A stretch of DNA of 41,361 bases from the IMG/VR virus record IMGVR_UViG_3300046804_000979, positions 1 to 41,361 of that record; one strand, 5' to 3'. Below are positions 20,305-33,668 of this stretch, piece by piece. Position numbers and translations under genes: made by a program. The stretch's first letter is position 1. Each line of letters opens with the position of its first letter. The notes beneath the pieces were generated by a model. The model saw only the letters and a list, made by a program, of their open reading frames with translations, was not told the origin of the DNA and did no database searches. This DNA is from a virus.

Positions 20305-20328
20305 TGCTTGCGTTTGCGTTAGAGGCCC
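20260..20328 (-). repeat. Two 24-base imperfect direct repeats in the HTH gene
   Basis: Positions 20260-20283 and 20305-20328 match at about 20 of 24 bases and code for GPLTQ-LQA and GPLTQ-TQA. The first helix of the HTH may have been duplicated, or these may be two binding sites for a protein. The upstream copy overlaps the end of the annealing-protein gene. Confidence 0.6.
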
Positions 20329-21173
20329 ATCTCCAGATCGTCTTCCTCTGCCTCCAGAGTCACTACCTTTTTTGTGACGTAAGCCTCGACCTCATGATCG
20401 TGACAGCGCTTTTTGAACTCGATGGCTGCAACCCCGCCAAACGAACCGTAGATTTCTGCGTTGACCCGAAAGAGGCTTGCCAGCTTGGCATTCTTCTCCT
20501 CTGTGCTGATCTTGGTATTGCTAGCAATCTTGCCAATCAAGCCAAAGAAGTTGTCATGCCATTGATGTTCATCGGCATGGCTTGAGTACATCCTAGAGCC
20601 ATCACCATCGGGAATCATGACCTTGAACTTACCTTCGACTGCTGGAGCAACCTTTGGAATCGGTGTATCAACAGGCATAGGCATCGGCGCAGTGACAGCG
20701 TTAGGAATCGTCTCCACCTCAGTCTCATCGAGCATCCCCAATCCACAGTGAGCAAGTACGGTTCGTCTGATTGCTTTGGTGGTTGCCTTCATCAGGGCGT
20801 TGGCTTTTCCGATTCGTTCTGCGTCAAGTTCGACTGCCCCATCATTCTCAGTAACTCTTCCATCCTGTCCAGTGACTCGTACAGATACCAGATAGACACC
20901 CTCAAATCTCTCTCGGTTAATGATCGATACGGACAGCTTGTGCACTGCACACAGTTGCTGTGTGGCTCCAGCATTTGCGTACAACATCTTCTTCCCGTTA
21001 AGAACCAATAAATGGAACGGCTGTGCGCTAGGATCGAGTCCGACTTGCTGGCATCGGTAGTTGTAGTAAGCGACTGCTTGTTCTTGGCTAAGGCCACTCA
21101 TGTCTCCCTTAAGAACAATGGAATGGATTACGTCTTGATCGAGCGTATGTGGGTTAACTAAATCAGTTTTCAT
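20319..21173 (-). CDS. RecT/Red-beta-like single-strand annealing protein candidate
   Basis: A 284-aa protein. The N-terminal 'LSQEQAVAYYNYRCQQVGLDPSAQPFHLL...GKKMLYANAGATQQLC' (about 28-75) and 'GKANALMKATTKAIRRTVLAHCGLGMLDETE' (122-152) resemble phage recombinases (RecT/Bet-type in the 'G.NP...F.L....' part and the 'KA.T.A.RR..L...GLGMLDE' part). A Pro-rich linker (160-180) precedes a helical C-terminus ending in an acidic EAEEDDLE tail. It is paired by an ATGA overlap with the YqaJ-type exonuclease upstream, the typical exonuclease-plus-annealing pair for recombination-dependent replication. Confidence 0.65.
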   Translation of the reverse strand: MKTDLVNPHTLDQDVIHSIVLKGDMSGLSQEQAVAYYNYRCQQVGLDPSAQPFHLLVLNGKKMLYANAGATQQLCAVHKLSVSIINRERFEGVYLVSVRVTGQDGRVTENDGAVELDAERIGKANALMKATTKAIRRTVLAHCGLGMLDETEVETIPNAVTAPMPMPVDTPIPKVAPAVEGKFKVMIPDGDGSRMYSSHADEHQWHDNFFGLIGKIASNTKISTEEKNAKLASLFRVNAEIYGSFGGVAAIEFKKRCHDHEVEAYVTKKVVTLEAEEDDLEMGL

Positions 21174-22069
21174 TTGAGTAAGAACCTCCGTGAACCTGTT
21201 ATGTCACGCATAAAGCGTTGGTAAACCTCTGGCATTTCTTTTTGCAGAAGGGAACTGTCGAATCTTGCAGAACCTTTTGCAGAACGCCATGTGGCAAGCA
21301 CTCGGCCATCAAAAGTCACAAGCGTGTCAGCATCTTTCATTGCAGCTTGCAGGTAAGCCTGTTGTTTAGCTTCTTGCTCTTCAAGTTTTTTAATGTGCTC
21401 CTTAATTGTTTTTAGTTGATGTGCGACTTGCTCAACATGGCTATTCGCCACAGCACTATTGCTCGTTGAAATTGGAAACAGCTTTTTTGCTTCATCAGGC
21501 GTAGTGGGCATTGGTGGTGTTTTGGCCTGGATAGCGCCCCACAGCGCCGCCTCTGCCTTGATAAGGCGATCTTTATCATCATCAGTAATTGATTTATCAA
21601 TCAAAACTAGCTCTTGCCCACCAAAAAGCACTGCAAGAACAACTCTATTTACACGATGCACTGTCGCTTCATGGATGCACTGCACCGAGTCAGCAACTGG
21701 CATCAAGCCGCCAGAGTCAAATTGGCTCCTCTTCATCGCGTTGTAGTTCTTTACTTCAACCAACGTAGAGCCGTCTTCACTAATGAAATCAAAGTGAGAT
21801 CGCATCCAAGGATGATCAGGATGGGCAAGTTCGTAGTCGGCCTCTTTGAGTTCAATCTTAAGTCTCCTAGAAGCCTCTCTGCCGATTGAGTCTTGCAAAA
21901 GCAATCCCCAATTCATGCGTTCCTGACTTGCAGGATCAAATTGGTTTTTCTCTTCCCAATAACTTTCATCAGTTTTCTTGAGATAAACCTCTGCGGCTCT
22001 TCCCTCTGCTATGGCTCTAGCATCGGTTGCAAAGATCGCTTTGCTACGCTCTTCAAATGTATAAATCAT
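21170..22069 (-). CDS. YqaJ-like viral recombinase/exonuclease
   Basis: The start at 22069 (ATGA overlap with the upstream gene, AAGGAG 8 bases before) is preferred over the longer frame. Residues 1-299 include 'MNWGLLLQDSIGREASRRL' with Glu65, 'HPWMRSHFDFIS' with Asp94, and 'STLVEVKNYN' with E105-V-K107: the PD-(D/E)XK metal site of YqaJ/lambda-exonuclease enzymes. A coiled-coil (about 218-245) precedes the C-terminus. It resects double-strand ends to give ssDNA for the annealing protein coded immediately downstream. Confidence 0.85.
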   Translation of the reverse strand: MIYTFEERSKAIFATDARAIAEGRAAEVYLKKTDESYWEEKNQFDPASQERMNWGLLLQDSIGREASRRLKIELKEADYELAHPDHPWMRSHFDFISEDGSTLVEVKNYNAMKRSQFDSGGLMPVADSVQCIHEATVHRVNRVVLAVLFGGQELVLIDKSITDDDKDRLIKAEAALWGAIQAKTPPMPTTPDEAKKLFPISTSNSAVANSHVEQVAHQLKTIKEHIKKLEEQEAKQQAYLQAAMKDADTLVTFDGRVLATWRSAKGSARFDSSLLQKEMPEVYQRFMRDITGSRRFLLK

Positions 22070-22299
22070 GTTGTGATCTCCTTTGCCCAACTGCGAGGCC
22101 ATAAGTAAGACGCAGTGCGAACACCGCCTGCATCAATAAGAACTTGCTCAGGAACTTCCTTCCCACCTGGTAGCACGAACACACCTTGCTTGTTGTAATG
22201 CGGCACGATCATGATCTGTTCAATGTAATAAGAGCGACACCATTGGTGCTCTTCCATCGTGCCTTTCTTGAGCAGCAATCGATCAAGTGCGTTAGTCAT
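22066..22299 (-). CDS. Small protein of unknown function (77 aa)
   Basis: MTNALDRLLLKKGTMEEHQWCRSYYIEQIMIVPHYN, then 'GVFVLPGGKEVPEQVLIDAGGVRTASYLWP'. It has a mixed alpha/beta composition, with no recognised domain or membrane segment. It overlaps the exonuclease start (ATGA) and the HTH gene end by 8 bases, so it is in the same operon. Confidence 0.6.
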   Translation of the reverse strand: MTNALDRLLLKKGTMEEHQWCRSYYIEQIMIVPHYNKQGVFVLPGGKEVPEQVLIDAGGVRTASYLWPRSWAKEITT

Positions 22300-22516
22300 T
22301 TGTTTCTCCTTTGTTTTTGCTCATGCGATGAGCATTAAGCCAAGCGTCGATATCTTCTTTGAAATAGAAAATTCTTCCTTTCTTTACGAAGCGTGGCCCT
22401 TTTCCACTGCACCGCATCATTGCTAGCGTCTTAGGTGCCAGCCCAATATACCGAGCAGCGTCTTCTGTACGCATACGGCCATCTGGGTACATCGTGATGC
22501 CTTTGTCCATGCTCAT
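22292..22516 (-). CDS. HTH_17 / excisionase-like DNA-binding protein
   Basis: A 74-aa protein with 'RTEDAARYIGLAPKTLAMMR' (helix-turn-helix, about 16-35) followed by 'GPRFVKKGRIFYFKEDIDAWL' (wing and 'DIDAWL' end). This is the MerR-fold HTH_17 family, used in phage excisionases (Xis/AlpA-like) and transcription regulators. No integrase is visible in the window, so an early regulator is as likely as an excisionase. It is the second gene of the leftward operon. Confidence 0.75.
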   Translation of the reverse strand: MSMDKGITMYPDGRMRTEDAARYIGLAPKTLAMMRCSGKGPRFVKKGRIFYFKEDIDAWLNAHRMSKNKGETND

Positions 22517-22856: not shown

Positions 22857-22885
22857 TTGCAAGTTTATTGTTTGTTGGTTATGCT
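22857..22885 (+). promoter_or_regulatory. Sigma70-like promoter for small-RNA candidate
   Basis: TTGCAA at 22857-22862, a 17-base spacer, and TATGCT at 22880-22885 give a plausible sigma70 promoter reading rightward. It would start RNA at about 22892, just ahead of the long hairpin with its T-run. Confidence 0.5.
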
Positions 22886-22891
22886 TCGTTT

Positions 22892-22988
22892 GTCTGTGTG
22901 GCGCAGATAGAACCGTTAAGCATGTTCCTGTCCTTGAACTTACCCCTCAAGGAGCTGCCACCAGGGACATCCTTAACGGTTTTTTTTG
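22892..22988 (+). ncRNA. Small-RNA candidate: long rod hairpin with terminator
   Basis: The plus-strand sequence folds into one long rod: AACCGTTAAG (22911-22920) pairs with CTTAACGGTT (22972-22981), a C-C mismatch, then ATGTTCCTG (22922-22930) with CAGGGACAT (22962-22970), then TCCTTGA (22931-22937) with TCAAGGA (22947-22953). The loop is 9 bases and GCTGCCAC bulges on one side. Eight T follow the last pair (22980-22987). With the promoter just upstream, this is a promoter-hairpin-terminator unit of about 95 bases. It might also be only a strong terminator, but no rightward gene precedes it. No known RNA family was recognised. Confidence 0.55.
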
Positions 22989-23236
22989 TTTCTACATGGG
23001 CATACGGGGCCATAACCCAGCCCTCCCTCGGTGCCGCGACCAAAGGAATAAACGTGGCTAATCTTGGGGTTCTCCTTGCGAGCCAGCCTGGATAGGAACA
23101 ACTGGCAAGCATCGGGGCCAGACCCGAGAGCAGACGCAAGTCTGTAGCCTAGATAAACGAGAGCGAGCGCTTTACCCTTTTTAAAACGGGTGAGGTTGTA
23201 TTCTTCCTAGCTTTCAAGTCTTTGTATCTTGGTAAA
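22989..23236. other. Noncoding, structured leader-like region
   Basis: No convincing gene. Structural signs on the plus strand are GCCAG...CTGGC (around 23082-23106), TCGGG-gccaga-CCCGA (around 23112-23127), and CAGAC-GCAA-GTCTG at 23131-23144, a five-pair stem with a GNRA tetraloop. The long minus ORF covering 22879-23139 crosses the perfect rod hairpin and has no supporting start site, so I treat it as noise. It could hold an RNA upstream of the leftward operon, a replication site, or a second small RNA. Confidence 0.45.
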
Positions 23237-23273
23237 GCCCCCTGCGCTGCGCTTTGTGGCTACGCTAGGGGGC
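23237..23273 (-). terminator. Hairpin downstream of the right leftward block (weak terminator)
   Basis: GCCCCCT at 23237-23243 pairs with AGGGGGC at 23267-23273 (seven pairs), with GCG/CGC continuing inside past a bulged base. It lies 6 bases after the end of the 23279-23464 gene on the minus strand. The stem is strong but only three T follow, so termination is likely but not certain. Confidence 0.5.
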
Positions 23274-23278
23274 ATACT

Positions 23279-32666: not shown

Positions 32667-33668
32667 ATGCCTATTGGTGGCGGTATTATCCCAACAGCAG
32701 GCACCAGTCAGTACAATGAACTGACCTACGTTACCCGTAGGGCTTTCATTCCGAAACTGGTTGTCCAGCTTTATAACTCAACTCCCCTGCTTGCTGCATT
32801 GCTTGCAAACTCGCAGACTGCCTCTGGCGGTGTGTCGTCTGTAACGGTTCCAGTACAGGGTTCTCAGTTTGTCAACGCGCAGTGGTCAGACTACAGCGGT
32901 TCGTTTGCACAGCCTAGCGTACAGCAAGGTGCTTACAACGCTGAGTTCAACCTTAAACTGATGATCGCACCCGTGCCGTTCCTCGGTATGGAAGGTGCAG
33001 TTCAGCAAGACTATGCTGTGATCCCCTTGATTGAGGCTCGCATGAACGATGCGACCAACGTCATGATGGATGCCATGGCAACAGCGCTTTACAACAACAC
33101 CAGCAATGCACAGCAATTCACTGGATTGCCCATTGCAGTTGATTCGGCAGGCACCTATGGTGGCTTGAACCGCTCAACTTATGCTTGGTGGGGTTCTAAA
33201 GAGTACGCCGCAGGTAGCGTTAACCCAACCCGTCAAAACATCCTCCAGTACATCTCTGGAACGGTGAAAAACGGTGCTGAGGTGCCTTCCTTTGGTGTTT
33301 GCGGCTTTGGCACTTGGACACTGTTGGCGCAAGACTTTGTAGGCCAAGAAACCTACATGATCACCCCTGGCAGCAACTTTGCAAGCGGTGAAGAAGGCCC
33401 AACGTCTGGTTTCCGTGCGCTCATGGTTGCAGGTGTGCCCATTTACCCTGATCCCTATTGCCCAGAAGGCACGTTGTACTTGCTGAACTCGAACTACCTC
33501 AGCATGTACATCCACGATCAGGCTGAGTTTGCGTTCACTGGCTTTGAGTCCACGCTGCCTAACTGGCAGATTGGTTATGTTGGCGCAGTGTTAACCATTG
33601 CAGAAATGGTGAGCACCAAGCCTAAGAGCATGACCAAAGTGACCGGCCTTAACTCACTCACGCTGTAA
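32667..33668 (+). CDS. Major capsid protein, HK97-like
   Basis: AAGGAA precedes the ATG. The 333-aa protein begins MPIGGGIIPTAGTSQYNELTY, with 'RRAFIPKLVVQLYNSTPLLAALL' (N-arm region), 'SVTVPVQGSQFVNAQWSDYSG', a helical 'EARMNDATNVMMDAMATALY' (about 123-143), and 'PTSGFRALMVAGVPIYPDPYCPEGTLYLLNSNYL' (beta-rich P- and A-domain). Size and order fit an HK97-fold shell protein. It follows the scaffold-like gene and precedes small decoration-like genes. The exact family was not established. Confidence 0.8.
   Translation: MPIGGGIIPTAGTSQYNELTYVTRRAFIPKLVVQLYNSTPLLAALLANSQTASGGVSSVTVPVQGSQFVNAQWSDYSGSFAQPSVQQGAYNAEFNLKLMIAPVPFLGMEGAVQQDYAVIPLIEARMNDATNVMMDAMATALYNNTSNAQQFTGLPIAVDSAGTYGGLNRSTYAWWGSKEYAAGSVNPTRQNILQYISGTVKNGAEVPSFGVCGFGTWTLLAQDFVGQETYMITPGSNFASGEEGPTSGFRALMVAGVPIYPDPYCPEGTLYLLNSNYLSMYIHDQAEFAFTGFESTLPNWQIGYVGAVLTIAEMVSTKPKSMTKVTGLNSLTL

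Follow-up and report, generated by a model that had tools for sequence, protein, structure and literature searches.

A hypervariable, pseudoknotted RNA ending in an intrinsic terminator and its linkage to a second conserved non-coding element in phages

The window analysed here (the whole 41,361-bp stretch, an IMG/VR virus record from a freshwater phage) carries on its plus strand a non-coding element, hereafter RNA1, flanked by leftward genes. These encode a YqaJ/RecE-like exonuclease (21170-22102), an excisionase/HTH protein (22292-22516) and small products without assignment. Judged by its position alone, next to the exonuclease, the product of 20319-21173 could be a RecT/Erf-type partner; it matched no PHROG or Pfam model. 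A first-pass annotation had described a promoter and, after it, a three-tier rod (10, 9 and 7 pairs) interrupted by one C-C mismatch and an 8-nt bulge, closed by a 9-nt loop and followed by eight T, and had read it as a discrete RNA of about 95 nt with no plus-strand gene before it. All these elements are in the sequence: the promoter is present exactly as claimed, the rod is correct to the base, and no plus-strand gene precedes RNA1 in the window. Missing from that description were a 5' hairpin with a pseudoknot and a second element, RNA2, located downstream (Table 1). A promoter-driven structured RNA of ~95-100 nt with its own terminator is still predicted, but not as an isolated small RNA, as RNA2 follows it; since RNA1 is the first half of a two-part unit, a cis gate for RNA2 is no less likely than a free small RNA.

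Table 1. Features of the RNA1-RNA2 locus in the window.
Feature	Position	Strand	Evidence or detail
Sigma70-type promoter, TTGCAA-N17-TATGCT	22857..22885	+	-35 at 22857-22862, -10 at 22880-22885
RNA1, pseudoknotted ~100-nt RNA with intrinsic terminator at its end	22890..22991	+	Covariance model match, 92-110 bits; covariation
P1 hairpin, GUCUG (22892-22896) with CAGAU (22904-22908)	22892..22908	+	Fold; covariation
Pseudoknot 5' strand GUGGCG, within P1 loop	22898..22903	+	6 bp with 22956-22961
P2 5' strand, terminator stem	22911..22920	+	10 pairs with 22972-22981
P3 5' strand	22922..22930	+	9 pairs with 22962-22970
P4 stem, 7 pairs (22931-22937 with 22947-22953), apical loop ACUUACCCC	22931..22953	+	Fold; covariation
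8-nt 3' bulge GCUGCCAC	22954..22961	+	22956-22961 (UGCCAC) is the pseudoknot 3' strand
P3 and P2 3' strands, including C22971 mismatch	22962..22981	+	Fold; covariation
U tract, 8 T	22980..22987	+	First two T pair with A22911-A22912
RNA2, type t2, conserved non-coding element downstream of RNA1	22999..23220 (ends approximate)	+	Conservation; linkage

The fold of RNA1 is not due to chance. Its minimum free energy (MFE) is -42.3, compared with -23.7 +/- 3.1 for dinucleotide shuffles (z = -5.9), and none of 200 shuffles was as good. The C22921/C22971 mismatch separates P2 from P3, and P4 is capped by a 9-nt loop (22938-22946). With P2 as a GC-containing stem followed by the U tract, RNA1 has the make-up of an intrinsic terminator. 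The terminator stem is kept in the MFE and centroid folds, among which there is no antiterminator alternative; as the pseudoknot and the terminator stem are compatible and do not compete, no switch is apparent in RNA1.

The promoter-like sequence of the window shows 8 of 12 matches to the consensus, with a spacer of 17 nt. Neither it nor the RNA1 stem-loop appeared in the list of a generic promoter/terminator scan, because the promoter falls under the 9-of-12 cut-off of that scan and the stem-loop exceeds its loop limit. Relatives carry comparable sites, for example TTTACA-N17-TAAGAT at the matching position in L002, L005 and L006, or, in L249, L264 and L274, TTGACA separated by 18 nt from TACAAT or TAGAAT. 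More generally, 51% of 68 regions upstream of RNA1 contain a sigma70-like site that agrees with the consensus at 9 or more of 12 positions, versus 3% in shuffles. In three loci (L016, L026, and L036), the promoter region upstream of RNA1 also contains short direct repeats with TTTGCC, which are possibly binding sites of a phage regulator. In a few others, tRNA genes lie directly upstream of RNA1 (tRNA-Met and tRNA-Asn at L256:8315-8469; tRNA-Met at L269:1852-1926 and at L274:4167-4241), while most loci have none.

Using the protein encoded at 20319-21173 as a scan query, we retrieved 55 viral loci, more than 30 of which have kept RNA1 at the same place. A pattern scan together with a covariance model (R1) extended the RNA1 set to at least 65 loci and at least 36 distinct sequences, and later to more; a second covariance model (R2), likewise built without the pseudoknot, recovered many more divergent copies. 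The set now holds at least ~100 distinct sequences, from well over a hundred IMG/VR contigs and one named phage genome (MW202484), many of the records being fragments and some of the loci being one contig fetched twice. RNA1 also occurs in other gene settings: immediately after the gene of the large terminase subunit (L108, L131, L145, and L156), ahead of that of the small subunit (L090) or ahead of RusA (L113 and MW202484.1, our locus L235). In the latter, a complete podovirus genome, RNA1 (33509-33615, i.e. L235:5001-5107) lies mostly inside the CDS of a hypothetical protein, UOF77725.1. Among named phages, MW202484.1 was the sole record found by blastn, and three more RNA1-RNA2 queries yielded no further one. 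In bacterial genomes, scanning GTDB contigs with a pattern produced 65 hits, of which the covariance model supported none as a convincing RNA1, and 401 Acidovorax-family genomes contained no RNA1 at 1e-5 under strict filters and without a positive control. The collections searched may omit near relatives of the window.

The first-pass annotation had recognised no known RNA family, and the same answer came from Rfam 15, in which RNA1 found no match at gathering score when the whole window was scanned. At E <=10, the segment 22700-23300 gave weak sub-threshold matches only, none of them on the plus strand and covering RNA1; five loci scanned at E <=2 gave nothing at RNA1, and thirteen relatives gave RF02932 alone, outside RNA1. 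As a separate observation, the models of Betaproteobacteria toxic small RNA and anti-hemB match L028:4804-4877 (+) below threshold (26-27 bits). Literature searches returned no description of RNA1, which we rate as a new RNA family.

Compensatory changes in related phages, on which the first-pass annotation had staked its proposal, turned out to be massive. In an alignment of 81 RNA1 rows (A4), two-sided changes occur at all 32 modelled pairs. Overall, 93.4% of cells pair, versus 66.9% when shuffled and 31-49% when partners are slid by 1-3 columns, and the covariation score is 0.685 versus 0.226 for shuffles. P1 is paired in 86.9% of cells, with two-sided changes at five of five pairs, and helix 2 of the model (P2) in 99.1%, with two-sided changes at 11 of 11. 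These A4 values lean upward, because the alignment was made to fit the structure and its rows are related sequences, and for the latter reason shuffle counts overstate independence; the margin is nonetheless large. The U tract is persistent: of 80 aligned copies, 78 have six or more T among the 9 nt that follow P2. The two exceptions, L251 and L320, have the P2 stem and lack the T run, which implies that termination is not the sole selected role of RNA1.

The pseudoknot was evaluated on unaligned, parsed sequences, as in alignment A2 the bulge is displaced by one column from row to row, which depresses the pair count there (63% paired). The bulge measures 7-8 nt in all 38 parsed copies, and its match to the P1 loop spans 6-8 bp (mean 7.1), compared with 4.4 when bulges are exchanged between copies and 4.5 when they are shuffled; 14 distinct strand pairs are represented. 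With 1-2 nt before and none after the pairing strand in the P1 loop, the arrangement has classical H-type geometry. Near relatives display paired changes, such as GUGAGAG:CUCUCAC in L017 versus GUGGAAG:CUUCCAC in L073. The match is found again in 63 further sequences, which were found with the pseudoknot-blind model and are the members of the A4 set outside a 17-locus core (a few being near relatives of sequences used in building R2): the mean is 7.4 bp, versus 5.5 exchanged and 5.3 shuffled, at least 6 bp are formed in 60 of the 63, and 38 distinct pairs are observed. Covariation thus establishes the predicted structure of RNA1, pseudoknot included, and comparison of sequences also shows its strand.

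Directly after the RNA1 terminator, every early relative carries 220-300 nt of conserved, GC-rich non-coding sequence. This place is occupied by several unrelated types of RNA2, which differ by phage. The t2 type of the window is kept in L006, L012, L069 and, partly, L060, with no reading frame in common. As its fold energy is ordinary (z = -0.56), the case for it relies on its being conserved where relatives have no reading frame in common, and on its linkage to RNA1. An antisense ORF running leftward across RNA2 and RNA1 was considered and rejected, as frames differ between relatives. The window also contains a strong GC-rich hairpin, GCCCCC...GGGGGC (23237-23274), after RNA2 and before the leftward gene that comes next ends. 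For type t1, an alignment of 24 diverse copies contains 17 pairs with kept two-sided changes, and the plus strand fits the structure better (78 G-U versus 4 A-C cells) than the complement (49 and 10). Several t1 copies (L331, L340, and L113; also L304, L256, L249, L342, L257, and L344) bear an insert of ~100 nt at the tip of one hairpin, with tRNA-like acceptor and T-arm features, in which ARAGORN calls no tRNA. Finally, one t4 variant (L054:3762-3891, minus strand) contains the Betaproteobacteria-1 RNA (RF02932, 80 bits), a model with no match in RNA1 or in the RNA2 of the window. In bacterial genomes (compare L244, L246, and L247), Betaproteobacteria-1 RNA has no RNA1 upstream, so RNA2-like elements need not all have an RNA1. 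These bacterial copies sit after the end of an apparent phage primase gene.

The linkage between the two elements was approached from the RNA2 side, with search patterns that derive from loci having RNA1. Of 153 contigs selected purely by their RNA2 sequence, among the matches listed, 110 have RNA1 just upstream. They comprise 103 of 146 new contigs chosen through RNA2 motifs only, with RNA1 upstream on the same strand (E <=0.001), and seven of seven new contigs chosen through a t2 motif. Contigs without an RNA1 match include some that are too short and some with a divergent RNA1 (L332 and L343, later recovered). In L328, L329, L337, and L372, a different module of promoter, structured RNA and terminator replaces RNA1 before RNA2. 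Replacement modules of this kind are found in L328, L339, and L352, in L346, L372, and L337, and in L329, L331, L335, and L340. Only 9-32 nt separate P2 from RNA2, which is too short for RNA2 to have its own promoter there, and RNA1 is too variable to contain a conserved one. Most simply, RNA2 would be transcribed through RNA1.

RNA1 changes very fast in sequence while its fold is kept. In 175 locus pairs, each flank reaches 85% identity or more; RNA1 is less than 70% identical in 48 of them (mean flank identity 93% upstream and 96% in RNA2), a count to be read with the provisos that the pairs are non-independent, a few alleles recurring, and that phage mosaicism could concentrate exchange at RNA1. 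The pattern appears in separate groups (L064 versus L365, L358 versus L375). In L394-L400, RNA1 is likewise swapped or rewritten amid near-identical flanks. Such fast turnover suggests either that the RNA1 sequence is recognised by something and evades it, or that alleles must stay distinct.

To our mind, the best explanation, to which we assign a probability of roughly 0.4, is that RNA1 is a leader terminator braced by a pseudoknot, which releases an RNA of ~100 nt and gates read-through into RNA2. A sigma70-type promoter would start transcription just before P1, and the nascent RNA would fold P1 and then the P2-P3-P4 rod. The P1 loop would pair with the bulge of the rod, forming an H-type pseudoknot that braces it, and P2 with the U tract would end most transcripts, leaving a stable RNA of ~100 nt. 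RNA2, together in some phages with the gene that follows, would be made only when a polymerase passes the RNA1 terminator. The released RNA1 may act as well.

A free small RNA acting in trans, either as a regulator of host or phage RNA or as a decoy for a host defence or RNA-binding protein, is what the own promoter, compact fold and U-tailed terminator of RNA1 could also indicate, RNA2 being then made by incidental read-through. Quick allele turnover would suit an arms race. We nevertheless find such a role somewhat unlikely, as the linkage to RNA2 and the spacing are constant, nearly the whole RNA1 molecule is paired, and no target emerged: the best complement of RNA1 elsewhere in the window is 11 nt, similar to shuffles (average 10.5). 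Constant co-occurrence on the same strand, at a short fixed spacing, would agree with RNA1 and RNA2 being domains of one GOLLD-like phage RNA of ~350-450 nt, with the U tract as a linker or a partial stop. The absence of the U tract from two sequences fits this composite, as do the tRNA-like inserts of RNA2 and the tRNA genes beside RNA1, an association also reported for GOLLD (PMC12286853). It must be set against a canonical strong terminator (P2 plus U6-8) kept in 78 of 80 copies and against the lack of any match to the Rfam models of GOLLD or ROOL in the window, the thirteen relatives or the five loci, and we hold a single composite RNA to be unlikely.

The replacement of alleles between phages with near-identical flanks, and the leader position of RNA1 behind a promoter, are also what one would expect of RNA-based immunity or exclusion similar to that of phage P4 CI RNA or c4 antisense RNA, in which alleles would be specificities. 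This seems improbable, given that the Rfam scans returned no c4 match, that the window contains no complementary target, and that the variable parts lie mostly in intramolecular pairs. Least credible of all is an ordinary terminator between convergent units, devoid of RNA function. It would account for a stem and T run at the end of RNA1 and for the leftward orientation of neighbouring genes in the window, but RNA1 has a promoter and no plus-strand gene before it there, and P1, the pseudoknot, P3, and P4 all covary, none of which a bare terminator needs.

Beyond the preferred reading of RNA1 as a gating leader terminator, we tentatively, and with some doubt, envisage a widespread two-part phage locus, in which hypervariable, pseudoknot-braced RNA1 alleles, swapped between phages, would be the specificity part and conserved RNA2, sometimes with a tRNA-like domain, the working part. 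Such a locus would have no described counterpart and might serve in exclusion, counter-defence or translation control. To our knowledge, few non-coding RNAs combine a fixed fold with a hypervariable sequence, and distinct RNA1 alleles in near-identical phages form the pattern expected of a recognised or self-identifying molecule. What was a guess from a single genome has become an RNA family whose fold is backed by sequence comparison, with a pseudoknot (14 and 38 distinct pairs in two sequence sets) and a linked RNA2, and Betaproteobacteria-1, a known orphan RNA, gains a wider phage context. The pseudoknot offers clean mutants, as a change in the loop or bulge would break it and a compensating change restore it.

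Several known systems resemble parts of this locus. In the Pistol ribozyme, a 5' hairpin loop pairs with a bulge strand of a second hairpin, as is also the case in RNA1, but no conserved cleavage site was noticed in RNA1; a Pistol-like ribozyme was rejected, as the rod of RNA1 carries its partner bulge on the other side (3') and Rfam gives no match. Phage P4 CI RNA and c4 antisense RNA are short phage leader RNAs, as RNA1 would be, whose alleles would differ; RNA1 matches them neither in sequence nor by model, and the window offers it no complementary target. Betaproteobacteria-1 (RF02932) is contained in one RNA2 type (L054), and thus belongs to RNA2 and not to RNA1. With leader attenuators and riboswitch terminators, RNA1 shares a promoter, a pseudoknotted folded leader, an intrinsic terminator and a downstream product, although this product is foremost another non-coding RNA, and although RNA1 is hypervariable instead of being conserved around a ligand site and has no antiterminator in its MFE and centroid folds. 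GOLLD and ROOL, ornate RNAs of phages and prophages, are likewise structured and have loop-to-strand pairings (PMC12286853), and tRNA genes or tRNA-like inserts lie nearby, as they do in some of the present loci, whereas here RNA1 is ~100 nt long with its own terminator and RNA2 ~220-300 nt. GOLLD combines a variable 5' region with a conserved 3' region (PMC12286853), to which the variable RNA1 and the conserved RNA2 would correspond.
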